Source: a bacterium HR19
Lineage (GTDB): Bacteria > Calescibacteriota > Calescibacteriia > Calescibacteriales > Calescibacteriaceae
NCBI GenBank assembly: GCA_002898315.1
Contig: BEHV01000020.1
Span: 1-15,122 of the forward strand
Length of the DNA stretch: 15,122 bases
Reading direction: 5' to 3'
Each line of letters starts with the position of its first letter. Positions within the stretch are counted from its first letter, which is position 1. The position numbers were made by a program, and so were the translations under genes. The notes under the pieces are model-generated. The model was not told where the DNA came from. It made no database searches and was given only the letters and a program-made list of their open reading frames with translations. Positions 4,732 to 12,317 of this stretch are shown here, piece after piece.

Positions 4732-6129
4732 ATGATGCGGTGGAGTATAAAAACAATCTTTCTTGGAGCTTTTGCGGTAATTTTACCTTCTCTTACTCAT
4801 CCTTTCATATCAAGAGCGTACCCCGACTCTGAATCTATATCATTTTCCGGAAGTTTCAGAACAAGAGGAGAGTTCAGAGATAATCTTGATATGAACTCAT
4901 CCCAAAATGACTCTTTTTCTTTTGTGAATATGCGTTTCAGATTCGGTCCAACTATAAAAATTGGAGAAAACTTAGAACTTAAAGGAACAATGCAGGACTC
5001 AAGAATTTTCGGAAGAGCTGCTTCTCTTATTTCGCAAGATTCACCATTAGAGGGAGTCAATTTTACAGCAACTAATTCTCGAAACCTTGAATCGTTAGAT
5101 ATAATAGAAGGTTTAGCTCTGCTGAAAAAATCATTTGAAAACTTTCAGATAAGCACTTCTATTGGGAGACAGAGATTGGCTTATGGAGAGCACCGAATTC
5201 TTGGAACTTTTGATTGGTCAAATGTTTCAAACTCTTTTGACGGTGTAAAAATATCGGGAATACACTCTGTTTTCAGAACAGATGTTCTGGGTTTTATCAT
5301 AAGAGAAAATTCTGTTGCAGAAGGAGCATCGGAAATCCCCCAGCCGAAAAGAAACAAAACCTCACTTCTCGGTATTTATAACTCTTTCAACCTTCCGGGA
5401 AAAAATAATTTAGATGTTTATCTTCTTTCTGTTATTGATGGAACAAAAGCAAATTACGCAGGCGTAGGTTTTGAAAATTACAAAAGAGAGGTTTCAAAAG
5501 ATGCTCTTATATTTGCTACTGGATTGAGATTTTCAGGAGAGAAACAAATAAGAGATTTCACTCCTTTTCTGGTTTTTGAGGGGGTATATGAGTTTGGCAG
5601 AGCTTGGGCAGATAAACTGAATTCTTTTGCTATATCAGGAAGAATTGGCACAAAAGTGAGTCCCTTGAAAGTTCGTGTGTTCGTTGAGTATGATTTAGCT
5701 CAGGGAACAACTGCAAAAGACAAGGAAAAAGGTATAAGAAGAACATTTTATAACTTTTTCCCAACGAATCACATTCACTATGGGTATGCCGATCTTTTTT
5801 CCTGGAAAAACATGCATGGTATCAGGTTAAATACAGGTTTTACTCCCTTTGAGAAAATTTCTCTGAGTTTTGACTTCTGGAAGTTCTGGCTATACACAAA
5901 TGAGGATTGGTGGTATAATGCTGGTCAGCTCGTCTTTTTGAGAGATAAGCTACCATATCCATCTCGTGATGCCGGCTCAGAACTTGACCTTACTCTTGAG
6001 GTTGAGCCGGTCAAGAATCTCAAAGTTGAATCAGGGTACTCCATCTTTTTCCCAGGAGAACTCCCAAGAAAACTTGGCAAAAACGACCCTATGCACTGGG
6101 TATTTTTGCAGTTTATGGTAAATTTCTGA
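4732..6129 (+). CDS. Alginate-export-type outer-membrane porin heading the nir operon
   Basis: This 465-residue protein has a Sec signal peptide (basic start, hydrophobic residues 8-20, likely cleavage near Ala29) followed by alternating beta-barrel strands. SGSFRTRGEFRDN (39-51), QDSRIFG and the GRQRLAYGEHRILGTFDWSN segment are hallmarks of the alginate_exp family. The C-terminal residue is Phe, in the FLQFMVNF ending expected for BAM-assembled barrels. The family includes AlgE, but many members head respiratory operons in bacteria that make no alginate. Here nirS follows 30 bases later, so passage of nitrite or another small anion is a reasonable inference. There is no ribosome site before ATG 4732 or ATG 4735 and no in-frame start upstream. 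Together with the promoter position, this suggests leaderless translation. Confidence 0.8.
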   Translation: MMRWSIKTIFLGAFAVILPSLTHPFISRAYPDSESISFSGSFRTRGEFRDNLDMNSSQNDSFSFVNMRFRFGPTIKIGENLELKGTMQDSRIFGRAASLISQDSPLEGVNFTATNSRNLESLDIIEGLALLKKSFENFQISTSIGRQRLAYGEHRILGTFDWSNVSNSFDGVKISGIHSVFRTDVLGFIIRENSVAEGASEIPQPKRNKTSLLGIYNSFNLPGKNNLDVYLLSVIDGTKANYAGVGFENYKREVSKDALIFATGLRFSGEKQIRDFTPFLVFEGVYEFGRAWADKLNSFAISGRIGTKVSPLKVRVFVEYDLAQGTTAKDKEKGIRRTFYNFFPTNHIHYGYADLFSWKNMHGIRLNTGFTPFEKISLSFDFWKFWLYTNEDWWYNAGQLVFLRDKLPYPSRDAGSELDLTLEVEPVKNLKVESGYSIFFPGELPRKLGKNDPMHWVFLQFMVNF

Positions 6130-6222
6130 AAAAAAAGAAAAGAAAGGAGGTTTGGAAAAATGAAATTAGAAGAAAGTAAAGAAAAAACGAAAACGGTGAA
6201 AGAAAATAAGGAGGTGTGTGAT

Positions 6223-7890
6223 ATGGATGGTAAGAAAATAGTTAAACTCAAGAAATCGCTTTTTATATCTTTTCTTTTTATTGTTTTCTTGTTCTTCAAA
6301 GGTTATGCGCAGGAAAATAAAGGTGGTGAGACCAAGCAACCTCCGCCTCTGACCCCTGAGGAGATGGAAATTGCGAAAAAAATATTTTTTGATAGATGCG
6401 CTGGCTGTCATGGTGTAACTCGTAGAGGAGCAACTGGTCCAGCTTTGCTTCCGGAGAACAGAACCCGTCTTCTCGGAACAGAAGGACTGAAGGTCTTTAT
6501 AACTTATGGAACTCCCAGAGGAATGCCTGACTGGGGAAGGCAGGGAATTCTCTCTGAAAAGGAAATAGATATACTTGCAAGATTCTTACAGCATGAACCA
6601 CCTCCCCCACCTGAACTATCTCTTGCAGAAATGAAAGAGACGTGGAAAGTTTATGTCCCACCTGAAAAGAGACCAAAAGAACCTCAACACAAAAGAAACT
6701 GGCAGAACTTTTTCGGAATAGTTCTTCGTGATGTTGGAAAGGTCGCCATAGTAGATGGAGATACAAAAGAACTTGTCAATATTGTCAATACCGGGTTTGC
6801 AGTCCATATTCTCAGAGCATCCGCAACGGGAAGGTATTTTTATTCAATCGGTAGAGACGGAAGGGTGACTTTGATAGACCTTTGGGCTAATCCACCCGAT
6901 AAAGTAGCGGAAGTGAAAGTTTGTAATGATGCAAGAAGTGTAGATGTCAGTAAATACGAGGGGAAAGGGGTTAATTTCAAAGATAAGTTATCCATCGTCG
7001 GATGTTATTGGCCTCCATCTTTTGTGATATTAGATGGACAAACACTTGAACCACTCAAAATTGTCTCTACTTCAAGCTATACATACGATACAAACGAGTT
7101 TTTGAGAGAGGCACGAGTTGCATCAATTGTTGCTTCTCACCATGACCCGCTTTGGGTTGTGAATGTTAAAGAAACAGGTCAGATCTGGCTCGTTGATTAC
7201 TCAGATATAAAAAATCTGAAAATAACTATGATAGAAGCTGAGAGGTTTTTACACGATGGAGGGTGGGACCTGTCAAAGAGATTTTTCATCGTTGCTGCGA
7301 ATATGAGAAATAAACTTGCAGTTGTTGATACGCTTACAAAAAAATTGGTCTCTCTTGTTGAGGTTGGCAATAAACCACATCCCGGAAGAGGAGCTAATAT
7401 AGACCATCCTAAGTTTGGTCCGATATTCTGCACGGGGCATCTTGGAGATAATACTGTTCAATGTATAGGAACAGACCCAAAGAAAAAGCCCGAATATGCA
7501 TGGAAGGTGGTTGTGAAAGTAGAACTACCCGGTGAAGGAGGTGGAAACCTCTTTATAAAAACTCATCCTAACTCTCCGCACCTGTGGGTAGATAGACCTT
7601 TGAACCCCGAGCTCAGCAATAAGATTTTCGTCCTTGACAAATTCAAATTTGAAGTTAAGAAAGAGATAGAAGTTCCAAAAGAGTATGCTGGAGCGAGGTT
7701 CGTTCACCTTGAGTATAACAAAAACGGAGATGAGGTCTGGGTGTCTGTTTGGGGTAGAAAAGATCAACCTACTGCGATTTTGGTTTTTGATGATAAGACG
7801 CTTCAACTCAAGCACGAGATAAAAGGTGATTGGGTTATAACTCCAACAGGACACTTCAATGTCTATAATACTATGAAAGATATATACTGA
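6223..7890 (+). CDS. nirS: Cytochrome cd1 nitrite reductase
   Basis: NirS is the periplasmic enzyme reducing nitrite to nitric oxide with hemes c and d1. In the 555-residue form the signal peptide (KLKKSLFISFLFIVFLFF) is cleaved near YAQ. The heme c site is CAGCH (Cys59-His63) with Met101 of GMPDWG as probable second ligand. Heme d1 residues line up with Pseudomonas aeruginosa NirS: His195 for axial His182, His344 (HDGGWD) for His327 and His386 (HPGRGAN) for His369, with nearly the same spacing. The end, TPTGHFNVYNT, is also conserved, so the enzyme looks intact. I chose ATG 6223 because AAGGAGGTG (6208-6216) precedes it and it gives a normal signal peptide. An in-frame ATG at 6160 with its own AAAGGAGG (6143-6150) would add 21 charged residues. 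Confidence 0.95.
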   Translation: MDGKKIVKLKKSLFISFLFIVFLFFKGYAQENKGGETKQPPPLTPEEMEIAKKIFFDRCAGCHGVTRRGATGPALLPENRTRLLGTEGLKVFITYGTPRGMPDWGRQGILSEKEIDILARFLQHEPPPPPELSLAEMKETWKVYVPPEKRPKEPQHKRNWQNFFGIVLRDVGKVAIVDGDTKELVNIVNTGFAVHILRASATGRYFYSIGRDGRVTLIDLWANPPDKVAEVKVCNDARSVDVSKYEGKGVNFKDKLSIVGCYWPPSFVILDGQTLEPLKIVSTSSYTYDTNEFLREARVASIVASHHDPLWVVNVKETGQIWLVDYSDIKNLKITMIEAERFLHDGGWDLSKRFFIVAANMRNKLAVVDTLTKKLVSLVEVGNKPHPGRGANIDHPKFGPIFCTGHLGDNTVQCIGTDPKKKPEYAWKVVVKVELPGEGGGNLFIKTHPNSPHLWVDRPLNPELSNKIFVLDKFKFEVKKEIEVPKEYAGARFVHLEYNKNGDEVWVSVWGRKDQPTAILVFDDKTLQLKHEIKGDWVITPTGHFNVYNTMKDIY

Positions 7891-7954
7891 TTTGTGCTAA
7901 ACAGATGAGCGATATGTTTGTATTTTGATAAAATGTTGATAGGTGATAGTAATA

Positions 7955-9451
7955 TTGAATTTCATGTTTTCAAGGTTTCTCATTCTGATATTTTTTCTTG
8001 CTTCTCATCAAGGGGCTGAGATATATAAGAGATATTGTGCTTCTTGCCATGGTGAGGAAAAATTAGGTGGAAACGCTTCACCGCTGATTTTCATTGATTC
8101 GCAGATTGTAAAAAAAATACTTCAAGATGGACTAATGCCTTTTATGCCGAGTTTTAATTTCTCTCAAAAAGAATTAGATGAACTTATAAAGTATATTCAA
8201 GAGATTCCTTCTTTTGAAGGCGAAAGTGATTATTTCAAAAAGGTAAATGTTAAAAGTGCTATCAAGATAAATCCAGAAGATGCTACTGTTCTTGTGCAGA
8301 AAGATGCGGGCATATATGTTCTGAAAGATAGTGATTTTTTTGATAGTGTGAGCATATCAAAGATTCACGGGGGAGTAAAATTCTCTGAACAAGGGGTTTT
8401 CGCCTTATCAAAAAGTGGTGATCTTGTTAAATATCCCTTCGGAGGAGGGGAGGTTCAGAAAATAAAATTGTGCTCCTGGGCAAGAAACCTTGTTATATCC
8501 CACAAAGAAAATCTTATTTATGTGCTATGCCTTTTACCACAAAAATTGGTTTTGCTTGATGAAAAAGACCTGAAAGTTGTTGATGAAATAAAGCTTGATA
8601 AAAGACCAGTTGGCATTTTTAGTTTTAAACAGAAGATTTTGGCTATAACAAGAAGTGGGGAGATATTTGACCCGAAAGAGAGAAATTCAGTTAATAAATT
8701 AGGTGTTTTCGTAAAATCTTTCTGTGTCTCTCCGTTCTCTGATATGCTCATAATCGGAAGCGATAAAAATATTTATTTTTACGACGGGAAAAGATTTGTC
8801 TTTTCATACAAACTTACAAACCCTTCAAATTTTCACTTTTTTTCGTGTGAGTTCTGGTATAACGGTGATTTTGTGTCTGCTGTTCCTTTATCAAACACGG
8901 TCATATTTTTCAAAATGTATGATTGGCAAGTACTGAAAGAAATAAGTTTTGATAAACCCGTTCTTTTTATAAGAACTCATCCTGAGACAAATTACCTGTG
9001 GATTTCAGATGGACAAAAAATATATCTGATAAACAAATTTACCTTTGAGAAGGGGAAGGTTTTTGATGGGATTCATGCTGGATTTTCTCCTTGTGGAGAT
9101 TTCGCTTTTGTATCGGGCAAAAATAATATTTCGGTTTTGAATCCGAAAACTTTTGAGACCTTAAAAATTTTACCCGTTGAGAAGCCACTTGGTAAATACA
9201 ATTTTTTTGAGGAAATTTTACAGAGCGGTTTGCTCGGATGGGATATTTACAGAGTCAAATGTTGGGGATGCCATCATCAGAGCAAGATGGCTTTTGGTCC
9301 GCCTTTGAACCTTACCAGTAGAGATAAATTGTTGAAACAGATTGAGCACCCAAATCTCATGCCAGATTTGAAGTTGAGCAAAAGTGAAATCTCTGCTCTT
9401 GCGGACTTTTTAGATGTACTCAAAAGATGCTCTGCCCGAAAAGATTTTTAA
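7955..9451 (+). CDS. NirN-like heme d1 protein with cytochrome c domains at both ends
   Basis: A probable signal peptide ends near HQG-AEIYKRYC. Domain order is cytochrome c (CASCH, Cys28-His32, probable ligand Met64), a d1-type beta-propeller (about 100-415), then a second cytochrome c (CWGCH, Cys436-His440, probable ligand Met469). Propeller homology to the NirS here is visible: IHGGVKF with His138 matches the d1-axial His195, FHFFSCEFW with His294 matches His344, LFIRTHPETNYLWI matches LFIKTHPNSPHLWV, and PLGKYNF matches PTGHFNV. About 60 residues holding HPGRGAN are absent, so nitrite reduction is unlikely. NirN oxidises dihydro-heme d1 to heme d1 and has one N-terminal heme c. The C-terminal heme c is extra and may replace a NirC-like carrier. 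I chose TTG 7955, seven bases after AGGTGAT (7941-7947). GTG 7943 and ATG 7964 are alternatives. Confidence 0.8.
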   Translation: MNFMFSRFLILIFFLASHQGAEIYKRYCASCHGEEKLGGNASPLIFIDSQIVKKILQDGLMPFMPSFNFSQKELDELIKYIQEIPSFEGESDYFKKVNVKSAIKINPEDATVLVQKDAGIYVLKDSDFFDSVSISKIHGGVKFSEQGVFALSKSGDLVKYPFGGGEVQKIKLCSWARNLVISHKENLIYVLCLLPQKLVLLDEKDLKVVDEIKLDKRPVGIFSFKQKILAITRSGEIFDPKERNSVNKLGVFVKSFCVSPFSDMLIIGSDKNIYFYDGKRFVFSYKLTNPSNFHFFSCEFWYNGDFVSAVPLSNTVIFFKMYDWQVLKEISFDKPVLFIRTHPETNYLWISDGQKIYLINKFTFEKGKVFDGIHAGFSPCGDFAFVSGKNNISVLNPKTFETLKILPVEKPLGKYNFFEEILQSGLLGWDIYRVKCWGCHHQSKMAFGPPLNLTSRDKLLKQIEHPNLMPDLKLSKSEISALADFLDVLKRCSARKDF

Positions 9452-9490: not shown

Positions 9491-10705
9491 ATGTTGAGGA
9501 TAACAAACTTGGTAAAGGCATCTTTGAGCAAAAAAGTTCTCAACCCATCAGAGAGAGGAGTTGTTGTCATACTCAACATAACTTTATCGTGTAATTTGAG
9601 ATGCAGTCATTGTTATATATCTGCTGGATTTGGCAAAGATTTCTCTATGGATATACCTACTATAAAGAAACTCGCAGATGAATTTGAAAAAATAGGAGTT
9701 ATTTCTGTCGTCATTTCAGGTGGGGAACCACTTATGCATCCCAAGATATTTGAAATCGCAGATATTTTCAAAGATAAGGGGCTCAGAGTGAATCTCTCAT
9801 CAAACGGAACTCTTATAAACTCAAAGAACTTCAAAAAACTTAAAGTATTTGATTACATAGGAATAAGTATTGATGGACCGGAGGAAATCCACGATGAGTT
9901 CAGAGGGGTTAAGGGAGCTTTTTCAAAATCTTTAAAGTCGCTCAGAATTTGTGTTGAGAACGGGTTTCCTGTTGGAGTAAGGTTATCTATCACTCATAAG
10001 ACGGCGGACTTCATTCCTTTTATTTTTGACCTCGCAGAAAAAATCGGTGTTCCGAAAGTATATTTTTCTCATCTTGTTGGTTCCGGCAGAGGTAGATACC
10101 TTGAGCAGACATTCAAAGATAAAGCAAAAAAAGCAGTAGAGCTTATCGTAGATAGAGCAATTTATTATGTCCTGAACAACATACAGATAGATGTTGTAAC
10201 CGGGAATAATGAGACAGATGCTGTCATTCTCTACGAAAAATTTTCAAGAGATTTTGAGGACTACAAAGATTATCTTCTTGGTAATCTGAGGGCTTGGGGT
10301 GGTAATCAGGCGGGAGTAAGGCTTATGAATATAGACCCTTTTGGATTTGTCAAGCCTGACCCTTTCTTCCCTATCAGCATCGGTAATATTCATCAGAAGA
10401 GTTTATACGATATATGGAATGATGAAAGGAATCAGATTCTGTCTTTTTTGAGGAAGAGACCAAGAGATATTGTGGGGGAGTGTAGGACTTGTAAATTTCT
10501 TCAAATATGCAACGGGAGTTCAAGAGCAAGAGCTTTGATTTTGACGGGCAAAATAAACTCTCCTGACCCTGCCTGCCATATAATTCAGAGCGGTCAAGAT
10601 TCTCAATCTCAAAAATATGAAGAGAAATTCGGTAGTGAGGAGAAATCTCATTTTGATTATTATTTCCCTGACTTTTTAGCGGAGGGAGGTTTTGAAAGAT
10701 GTTGA
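9491..10705 (+). CDS. nirJ: Radical SAM heme d1 biosynthesis protein
   Basis: NirJ is a cytoplasmic radical-SAM enzyme of heme d1 synthesis, acting on didecarboxysiroheme to replace propionate side chains with oxo groups. The 404-residue protein has the 4Fe-4S motif CNLRCSHC (Cys34, Cys38, Cys41), the SGGEPL segment (about 75-80), NLSSNGTL and ISIDG of the SAM barrel. Two segments typical of NirJ are VTGNNETDA and AWGGNQAGVR. The C-terminal SPASM-like region carries Cys residues (GECRTCKFLQICNG and a later Cys in PACHI) suited to a second cluster. These NirJ-specific motifs favour it over the related AhbC and AhbD. AAGGAG at 9474-9479 and an 11-base T-rich spacer precede the ATG. Its stop overlaps the nirF start, implying coupled translation. 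Confidence 0.92.
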   Translation: MLRITNLVKASLSKKVLNPSERGVVVILNITLSCNLRCSHCYISAGFGKDFSMDIPTIKKLADEFEKIGVISVVISGGEPLMHPKIFEIADIFKDKGLRVNLSSNGTLINSKNFKKLKVFDYIGISIDGPEEIHDEFRGVKGAFSKSLKSLRICVENGFPVGVRLSITHKTADFIPFIFDLAEKIGVPKVYFSHLVGSGRGRYLEQTFKDKAKKAVELIVDRAIYYVLNNIQIDVVTGNNETDAVILYEKFSRDFEDYKDYLLGNLRAWGGNQAGVRLMNIDPFGFVKPDPFFPISIGNIHQKSLYDIWNDERNQILSFLRKRPRDIVGECRTCKFLQICNGSSRARALILTGKINSPDPACHIIQSGQDSQSQKYEEKFGSEEKSHFDYYFPDFLAEGGFERC

Positions 10706-11745
10706 TATATTTTATTTTCGGTTTTATCTGGGTTGTGTCTCGTGAGACAACTTCTGTTTTTGTTATAGACCATAAGGAAGGTAAGATTATCTCACGGGTT
10801 AATGTTGGTCAAGACCTCAGGCATGCTGTGATAAAATTCAGAGGTAAAAATGCTTTCTTGCTCACAAGAGATGGATATATTATCTCAATATCTTCTGATT
10901 TTCTGGTTGCAGATAAAATAAAGGTTGGAGAAAGTTCAATAGGTTTTGATTTTATTTGTGATGATGTGATCGCTGTTGCGAACTATCAGCCCGGCGGTGT
11001 AGCTATACTGAACCTTAAAGATAAAAAAACCGATTTCATTGACACAAACTCAAGAGTTGTTGGAATAAAGGTTTTTGAAAAAAATGGGAAGACAAAACTT
11101 ATCTTTTCCCTGATGGATAGAGGAGAGATACATATATATGATGTTGAGAACTGCCTGCCGAAGGAATTGAAGAAATTAAGTGTTGGAGATGTCATCTTTG
11201 ATGCCTTTTTGTACTCTGAAAAATATATCTATGGCTTGTGGAAAAGGGGAGATATTGGAGTGTTGAATCTTCAAGATTTATCTTCTCATTTTATCAGTTA
11301 TGGTAGAGGGGAAGAACTTTTCAAGGTCCCACACTTTGGGAGTTGGGCGGAAATAGCAGGAAAAATTTTTATTCCTAACCTTGGCATACCATACATTATC
11401 CAGCTTGATGTCTCAAGCTTAAAGTATAAAAAGATAGAGGTTTGTTCATCTCCGGTTTTCGTGGTATCAAATGTGAAAAATCATTTAGCGGTGAATTACT
11501 CTGGAAAATGCGAAGATATAATTTCTCTTTTCAGATTCTCTGAAAGTCAAGGAAAAATTACAGGAAGGAAGGATTTTAAGTTGGGCAAAAGAATATTGCA
11601 TATGAGGTTTTTTGATAAAAATCCGAACCTTATAATTTTTTCTTCTTATTTTGAAGATAGGGTGAAGGTCTTTGATATAGAAGCAGAAAAAATTGTGAAA
11701 GAATACGAAATTCCGACTCCTTCTGGGATATTTTTGAGCGAATAA
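10699..11745 (+). CDS. nirF: Heme d1 biosynthesis protein, eight-bladed propeller type
   Basis: NirF binds heme d1 or its precursor and is required for producing the cofactor. The 348 residues match the family along the whole length: VSRETTSVFVIDH at the first strand, His42 in DLRHAVIKF where NirF and NirS place the d1-ligand His, VANYQPGGVAIL (93-104), SYGRGEELFKVPHFGSWA (200-217), ILHMRFF (299-305), DRVKVFD, and the ending PTPSGIF. NirF of Pseudomonas is a periplasmic lipoprotein. Here the N-terminus is only about 13 hydrophobic residues (MLIYFIFGFIWVV) with no lipobox Cys, and the first blade begins at once, so location is uncertain. It overlaps nirJ by seven bases, and its ribosome site (GGAGGGAGG, 10681-10689) lies inside nirJ. 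It ends the operon. Confidence 0.9.
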   Translation: MLIYFIFGFIWVVSRETTSVFVIDHKEGKIISRVNVGQDLRHAVIKFRGKNAFLLTRDGYIISISSDFLVADKIKVGESSIGFDFICDDVIAVANYQPGGVAILNLKDKKTDFIDTNSRVVGIKVFEKNGKTKLIFSLMDRGEIHIYDVENCLPKELKKLSVGDVIFDAFLYSEKYIYGLWKRGDIGVLNLQDLSSHFISYGRGEELFKVPHFGSWAEIAGKIFIPNLGIPYIIQLDVSSLKYKKIEVCSSPVFVVSNVKNHLAVNYSGKCEDIISLFRFSESQGKITGRKDFKLGKRILHMRFFDKNPNLIIFSSYFEDRVKVFDIEAEKIVKEYEIPTPSGIFLSE

Positions 11746-11831: not shown

Positions 11832-12317
11832 ATGGCTATCAGAGATATAGCAGAGCTTAAATCTTTGAGGGGGGAAGAGCTTGACAAGATATTTGTAGAA
11901 GGTTCTTTGCCTTCTCATAGTGAGATTCAGGGATTCTGGAGAGGATTAGCTTTACCGCAAACTTCAAAAACTCCTGTGCCTTCATTCCTTGAAAAGGTCT
12001 TTATTCTCACAGGTGATATTTTGTGGAAGGGCAAGGTCTTTGTGAAGATTGATTCTGAGTTCAGAGGAGTAAATATTCTGACCCGTGCGAAGATTCCGGC
12101 TTTTCACTTCAAAGTTGTTGAAGATAGGTCAAGGTTTGATGGGAATCCATGTTTGGTTTTGAAATATTCTGTTTTTCCTAATCCATTCCTTGTGAGGACT
12201 ATAAGAGACGAGATAAGGAAGGTTGGGGATGGAGTTATTTTAGGGCTTATGTTCTTTTCTTTCTTTGACAGGTTGTTTATTCCTTCAATATATTTTGCGC
12301 TTCAGAAAGAGTTATAA
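11832..12317 (+). CDS. Protein of unknown function, 161 residues
   Basis: I do not recognise a named family with certainty. The sequence is soluble in character, with no signal peptide. It starts with LKSLRGEELDKIFVEG, has a GFWRG segment at 34-38, an ILWKGKVF strand (63-70), then SRFDGNPCLVLKYS (100-113) and a TIRDEIRKVGDGVILGLM segment (123-140), ending in YFALQKEL. The order ELD-x-[IL]F, G-x-x-RG, W-x-GKVF, FDG-x-[PE]C-[LI]VLDY, RDEIR, G-x-x-LG resembles a group of uncharacterised lipocalin-like bacterial proteins, possibly related to GXWXG-domain proteins. A role in binding a small ligand is conceivable but unproven. It follows the putative nirF terminator and has no clear ribosome site. 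The TM2 gene starts nine bases after its stop, so those two are probably co-transcribed. Confidence 0.7.
   Translation: MAIRDIAELKSLRGEELDKIFVEGSLPSHSEIQGFWRGLALPQTSKTPVPSFLEKVFILTGDILWKGKVFVKIDSEFRGVNILTRAKIPAFHFKVVEDRSRFDGNPCLVLKYSVFPNPFLVRTIRDEIRKVGDGVILGLMFFSFFDRLFIPSIYFALQKEL

Follow-up and report, generated by a model that had tools for sequence, protein, structure and literature searches.

NirN is the dihydro-heme d1 dehydrogenase that completes the heme d1 cofactor for nitrite respiration. In its canonical form, known from P. aeruginosa (PDB 6rtd/6rte), it consists of an N-terminal class-I heme c domain and a d1 propeller with three conserved histidines and a GKYN motif, stops about 17 residues after the start of that motif, and is encoded in clusters with nirS, nirJ and nirF. 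In canonical clusters nirC stands directly before nirF, and its product (PDB 6tp9) is a small periplasmic class-I cytochrome with a His/Met motif. The role of NirC was disputed for decades and was assigned only in 2026, in vitro and together with NirF (PMC13168839): NirF and NirC, both of which are needed in vitro, convert the dilactone of the NirJ product to dihydro-heme d1, and NirN afterwards desaturates a propionate, so that NirC works with NirF in the step before NirN. Among the work cited within that paper, Paracoccus NirC exchanges electrons with NirN in vitro, as donor, and NirC is dispensable for d1 synthesis in P. aeruginosa (both as cited in PMC13168839). NirN, NirS and NirF of P. 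aeruginosa are known to interact transiently (PMC3694632). The nearest precedent for an extra cytochrome c fused to a d1-propeller protein is the C1-C2-NirS nitrite reductase of Chloroflexi (PMC8756737).

The stretch analysed here, 15,122 nucleotides long and called the window throughout, corresponds to contig C20 in a genome of 1.88 Mb and 82% completeness from the candidate phylum Calescibacteriota, whose closest named relative is Candidatus Calescibacterium nevadense; the NirS of the latter has already been noted (PMC4791363). Its plus strand carries, in this order, genes for a porin, NirS, a NirN-like protein, NirJ, NirF, a 161-aa unknown protein and a TM2 protein. The cluster lacks nirE and nirDL, and its gene content agrees with the statement of a first-pass annotation that it holds no nirC. 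The principal genes are as follows.

4732..6129, + strand: alginate_exp-type outer-membrane porin (PF13372), located 5' of nirS in 3/3 Calescibacterium genomes
6160..7890, + strand: nirS, cytochrome cd1 nitrite reductase (PF02239 at 424.8 bits, N-terminal CAGCH, within the NirS clade)
7964..9451, + strand: nirN-like gene encoding cytochrome c, d1 propeller and cytochrome c, 495 aa from ATG 7964
9491..10705, + strand: nirJ, radical SAM enzyme of heme d1 synthesis (top NCBIfam model TIGR04051 NirJ at 320.6 bits, below the cut-off of 515)
10699..11745, + strand: nirF, single-domain d1 propeller (PF02239, within the NirF clade of the tree)

Directly before its start nirF has a strong Shine-Dalgarno sequence (GGAGGGAGG). 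The hydrophobic leader of the encoded protein is very short (MLIYFIFGFIW), as it is in the 86% identical congener, and the export signal appears truncated relative to that of C. nevadense NirF. The 161-aa protein (11832-12317) has no Pfam or NCBIfam match and adjoins nirF in two Calescibacterium genomes.

The nirN-like frame is free of stops from GTG 7943 to 9451, giving 502 aa from GTG 7943 and 498 aa from TTG 7955, the start chosen at first. ATG 7964 is the likelier start because the homologue of 86% identity begins with ATG at the equivalent position. Residue numbers given here are counted from GTG 7943, and the parts of the protein are the following.

8036..8050, + strand: first heme c site CASCH, residues 32-36 (invariant alignment columns; Pfam PF13442)
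8144-8146, + strand: Met68, likely distal ligand of the first heme (invariant alignment columns)
8231..9202, + strand: d1-type beta-propeller spanning about residues 97-420 and closing with the NirN GKYN motif (PF02239; AlphaFold pLDDT mostly >85)
8366..8368, + strand: His142, which aligns to the axial d1 ligand in NirS (invariant in both canonical and extended NirN)
8834-8836, + strand: His298 (conserved in canonical and extended NirN)
9074-9076, + strand: His378 (conserved in canonical and extended NirN)
9203..9448, + strand: extra C-terminal cytochrome c domain, residues 421-502 (beyond the NirN structural match; about 70 homologues; absent from canonical NirN)
9260..9274, + strand: second heme c site CWGCH at residues 440-444, with His445 next (invariant in a 32-homologue alignment)
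9359..9361, + strand: Met473, likely distal ligand of the second heme (invariant in the 32-homologue alignment)

Several lines of evidence point to NirN as the identity of this protein. The top PDB matches of its AlphaFold model (overall pLDDT 83.7) in Foldseek are the NirN structures 6rtd/6rte, with an E value of 3e-27 compared to 3e-19 for NirS, and in VIA-align NirN (6rte/6rtd) likewise scores above NirS and NirF (Z 36.1, 32.2 and 29.9, respectively). In a maximum-likelihood tree of the propellers, obtained by a quick search and with the window row on a long branch, all NirN proteins group together, separate from NirS and NirF, with a support of 97, and the window protein falls inside that part of the NirN group whose members bear the additional domain. 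His142, His298 and His378 are conserved in it together with the NirN-typical Asn182 and Lys418; structures of NirS, NirN and NirF suggest that His142 would serve as a d1 ligand. By its closest solved fold, its place in the tree and its conserved histidines the window protein is thus NirN, with a predicted catalytic role. It differs from the canonical form at its end: instead of stopping soon after GKYN, as the two-domain layout does, it continues for 82 further residues that contain a second heme c site, and the structural match to NirN spans residues 22-426, leaving the C-terminal 75 residues outside.

The presence of a heme c motif at each end of a NirN-like protein, which was the central claim of the first-pass annotation, is upheld by Pfam, the structure match, the tree and the conserved motifs. 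Pfam places the N-terminal cytochrome c domain (CASCH) at residues 22-85, and its match to the C-terminal one is weaker (24.1 bits for the isolated domain, below the cut-off of 27). Nevertheless the C-terminal CWGCH and its candidate Met are no chance occurrence, being invariant in 32 homologues and kept in 72/73 fused domains. The three-part protein is found in the equivalent operon of two congeners, at 86-87% and 37% identity, both of which retain the C-terminal CxxCH. It had been considered that a frameshift or an assembly join at 9230-9260 might have created the C-terminal cytochrome, to which we give practically no credence and which we reject: the identical junction occurs in the two independent congener assemblies and recurs at about 70 other loci.

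These loci came to light when proteins with the three-part layout were sought, as had been proposed. A scan of 84,980 species genomes using patterns derived from the three Calescibacterium proteins, and therefore biased by the CWGCHH pattern, returned 60 loci, of which 58 encode cytochrome, propeller and CWGCH within a single frame (one being truncated towards its N-terminus) and 2 are broken or cut. In all, about 70 fused copies were found, and the extended NirN occurs in at least seven phyla; besides Calescibacterium its bearers belong to Aquificota, Campylobacterota, Nitrospirota, Planctomycetota, Bdellovibrionota and some Gammaproteobacteria. Follow-up scans used a profile without the C-terminal domain, which removes the CWGCHH bias. 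With this profile NirN was detected in 9/150 Campylobacterota genomes, six with an intact fusion, one with the domain and an interrupted nirN, and two with the domain as a separate gene. Among Pseudomonadota NirN was present in 50/398 genomes, and the domain at none of the loci read except that of the Gammaproteobacterium serving as centre. A draw of 386 genomes across phyla gave eight NirN genomes besides Calescibacterium, five with the domain, two without it (G053 and G736) and one cut. In the genomes sampled the extended layout is therefore not rare and is the usual form of NirN outside Pseudomonadota. The literature searched, which mostly stopped short of subscription papers, yielded no account of a NirN carrying a cytochrome at its C-terminus, of its spread over at least seven phyla or of its exclusive relation to NirC; the extended NirN is a widespread variant made of known parts and apparently undescribed as such. 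In one Campylobacterota genome (G088) nirN (L198 7947-10727) is split by a transposase-like open frame.

The extra domain is a short class-I cytochrome c of about 80 residues, in which a Lys precedes CWGCHH, AFGPP/AFAPS comes after it and an MP stands late in the sequence. The alignment of 32 homologues shows no variation at G, KCWGCHH, AF, P, P and MP, and the CXXCH with the single invariant Met seen there would fit the His/Met pattern of ligation. C[WM]GCH[HN] is present in 73/73 fused domains; the one that lacks the later Met stops early in a broken frame. The nearest solved relatives of the domain are the c555/c552/c551 carriers and NorC. Folding the window domain alone was uninformative as to subfamily, with a middling pLDDT of 73.7 and weak PDB matches (E 0.9 or worse, a Rhodothermus cytochrome c first).

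The first-pass annotation had proposed that this domain is a fused NirC-like carrier, a reading that does not stand as far as descent is concerned. Two hallmarks define NirC: CXXCH is immediately preceded by an Asp, and the heme motif is followed by a GGLG loop (PMC7137109). The residue before CXXCH is Lys in 32/32 C-terminal domains compared to Asp in 8/8 NirC proteins, and AFGPP/AFAPS takes the place of the missing GGLG loop. NirC matches the profile of the C-terminal domain at only 3-4 bits (hhalign 31-32%), the lowest value among the nir cytochromes compared, while the NirC profile reaches 34-45 bits against the N-terminal domains of NirN and NirS, with which NirC groups in the matrix of nir cytochromes. 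The NirC structure 6tp9, the top match for NirC's own profile, is absent among the best 60 matches listed for the profile of the domain (E up to 5). Judged by these motifs and profiles, the C-terminal domain is not NirC by descent, and we reject a fused NirC by homology. Its profile is closer to NirM (about 20 bits, hhalign 96.9%). NirM and the cytochromes c551, c552 and c555 are likewise carriers, but they are stand-alone donors to NirS and oxidases outside the biosynthetic enzyme, whereas the domain is part of NirN. It differs also from the extra cytochrome of the Chloroflexi C1-C2-NirS, which is N-terminal, attached to NirS and confined to Chloroflexi, while the present domain is C-terminal, attached to NirN and widespread.

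The part of the proposal that concerns function, that the domain takes the place of NirC, does have comparative support. Clusters bearing the domain typically read nirS-nirN-nirJ-nirF-nirE-nirDL, without nirC. Among loci with both nirN and nirF, contig-edge cases excluded, 68 have the domain only, 34 have nirC only, none has both and none has neither; about two genomes (Calescibacterium) are counted twice, and the 68/34 count and the Fisher test on it overstate independence because the switch is largely one deep phylogenetic event, the propeller tree showing about three changes of state and mostly one deep split. Whole-genome searches gave no stand-alone NirC in any of 32 domain-bearing genomes (16 + 16; domain fused or detached), where the best matches are the cytochrome domains of NirS and NirN. 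The same search finds NirC in 10/10 canonical genomes (E 1e-23 to 1e-40), in four of which nirC lies outside the nirN locus examined. A separate nirC that might act with the protein from elsewhere was likewise found neither in the window genome, at its 82% completeness, nor in the congeners; the best small NirC candidate of the window genome, a protein of 119 aa (G000:C10), reaches an E value of only 0.03 and was rejected. NirC and the C-terminal domain are thus both small class-I cytochromes of the d1 cluster, each found where the other is missing, although one is a free protein and the other is fused to NirN and their profile similarity is near zero.

Genome G736 has neither the domain nor a true NirC, and has another small cytochrome between nirS and nirN; Brocadia has small cytochromes of that kind in addition to the domain. 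A NirC-like job may therefore not need the C-terminal domain. The small cytochromes between nirS and nirN (L245 8698-8952 in G736, L063 6967-7905 and L058 7154-7906) are without the NirC motifs and of a different cytochrome type, and Kuenenia kuste4137, called nirC, occupies the corresponding nirS-nirN position (PMC6423088). In G722, whose NirN is cut by the contig end, an extra small cytochrome of 123 aa (L249 5862-6233) lies between nirDL and nirE.

Two Campylobacterota (G083 and G171) carry the domain as an intact CWGCHH cytochrome gene of its own between nirN and nirJ, encoding 102 and 113 aa, respectively.

L196 10325-10633 and L197 7457-7798: CWGCHH cytochromes encoded on their own and bearing an apparent signal peptide, beside a NirN with a decayed C-terminal domain

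In these genomes NirN ends in what is left of the domain, decayed and heme-less (GKYNFINKNREFYPRLFGIDIFKQNC..., GKYNFICKNRRYYPALFGLDIYYQKC...), and the simplest story would be that the fused copy was duplicated and then decayed. That the domain has its own gene and signal peptide next to a NirN whose tail has decayed suggests an ability to work in trans, and the retention of the heme domain when detached favours a carrier role over a purely structural one.

What the domain does has to be considered in light of the biochemistry of NirC. As NirC is needed with NirF in vitro and has exchanged electrons with NirN, a pathway without NirC needs another carrier, and where NirC is missing the C-terminal domain presents itself as the obvious candidate for the acceptor. 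On balance we think that in the extended NirN this non-homologous class-I cytochrome c may well stand in for the missing NirC, accepting electrons from heme d1 maturation; the two share no special ancestry, so the equivalence is deduced from replacement alone. The propeller would bind dihydro-heme d1 via the conserved histidines and the N-terminal heme c would take electrons, just as it does in canonical NirN. For its part, the heme c at the C-terminus (His444/Met473) would act as a mobile or tethered acceptor, the part played elsewhere by NirC, drawing its electrons from the keto-forming step of NirF, from NirN's own oxidation or from both, and would pass them on to the periplasmic electron pool. 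Because the partner of NirC is NirF, one step ahead of NirN (PMC13168839), the domain could serve NirF or NirN, or the two together. A domain attached to NirN could reach NirF, given the contacts among NirN, NirF and NirS in P. aeruginosa (PMC3694632). A broader and more tentative possibility is that periplasmic heme d1 synthesis always needs one class-I cytochrome beyond NirN's own, a slot filled by unrelated cytochromes: free NirC in most Pseudomonadota, the NirN-fused domain in most other phyla, and a re-detached domain in two Campylobacterota. The fused form would then put the acceptor for the NirF keto-step on NirN and couple the last two steps in one NirF-NirN complex.

The covalent link to NirN in about 70 genomes could also mean that the domain serves its own NirN only, as the outlet for the two electrons released when dihydro-heme d1 is oxidised in a self-contained dehydrogenase, with NirF using some other carrier, and the electron exchange between NirC and NirN in vitro (as cited in PMC13168839) would be in keeping with this. 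We consider it rather unlikely, as canonical NirN functions without the domain, as the NirC that the domain replaces is now assigned to NirF (PMC13168839) and as the domain is detached from NirN in two genomes. The greater profile similarity to NirM than to NirC, the c555/c552/c551 carriers as best PDB kin and the transient interaction of NirN with NirS and NirF in P. aeruginosa (PMC3694632) could instead indicate a NirM/c551-like donor for NirS, or an aid to NirS reduction during the hand-over of heme d1 by NirN. The domain, however, tracks the loss of NirC and not that of NirM, which is missing from most canonical clusters as well, and a respiratory donor would be in short supply if it were fused to a biosynthetic enzyme; such a role seems improbable. 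That the window copy is shortened and modelled with moderate confidence (pLDDT 60-86 for the C-terminal domain within the protein, 73.7 alone) might hint at an appendage that is redox-inert or structural, serving for instance export, stability or docking, but the heme motif and Met persist in 72/73 of the fused copies, which span at least seven phyla, and also in the detached genes, which makes this very improbable indeed.

If the domain does stand in for NirC, the exchange, in nature, of NirC for an unrelated cytochrome, whether fused or free, provides an independent handle on NirC function: should the replacement domain rescue NirF or NirN, the role of NirC would be electron transfer rather than specific chemistry or docking. 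Furthermore, the use of nirC as a marker would score many denitrifiers among Aquificota, Campylobacterota and Nitrospirota as incomplete, and NirN models with a single heme c misfit them.

Other fusions were seen among nir proteins. The NirS of G829 and G693 (L243 4374-6743 and L244 2323-4692) is 789 aa long with two extra N-terminal CXXCH domains, and also matches the profile of the C-terminal domain at 46-47 bits. In four Pseudomonadota (L222 8962-11685, L224 7087-9822, L260 4860-7589 and L261 5494-8265) NirJ and NirN form a single open frame of 907-923 aa, in which NirJ, a cytoplasmic radical SAM enzyme, and the periplasmic NirN are linked by a hydrophobic stretch at the position of the NirN signal peptide. 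A membrane-spanning NirJ-NirN fusion, if that is what these frames encode, would bear on how the NirJ product is transported across the inner membrane.
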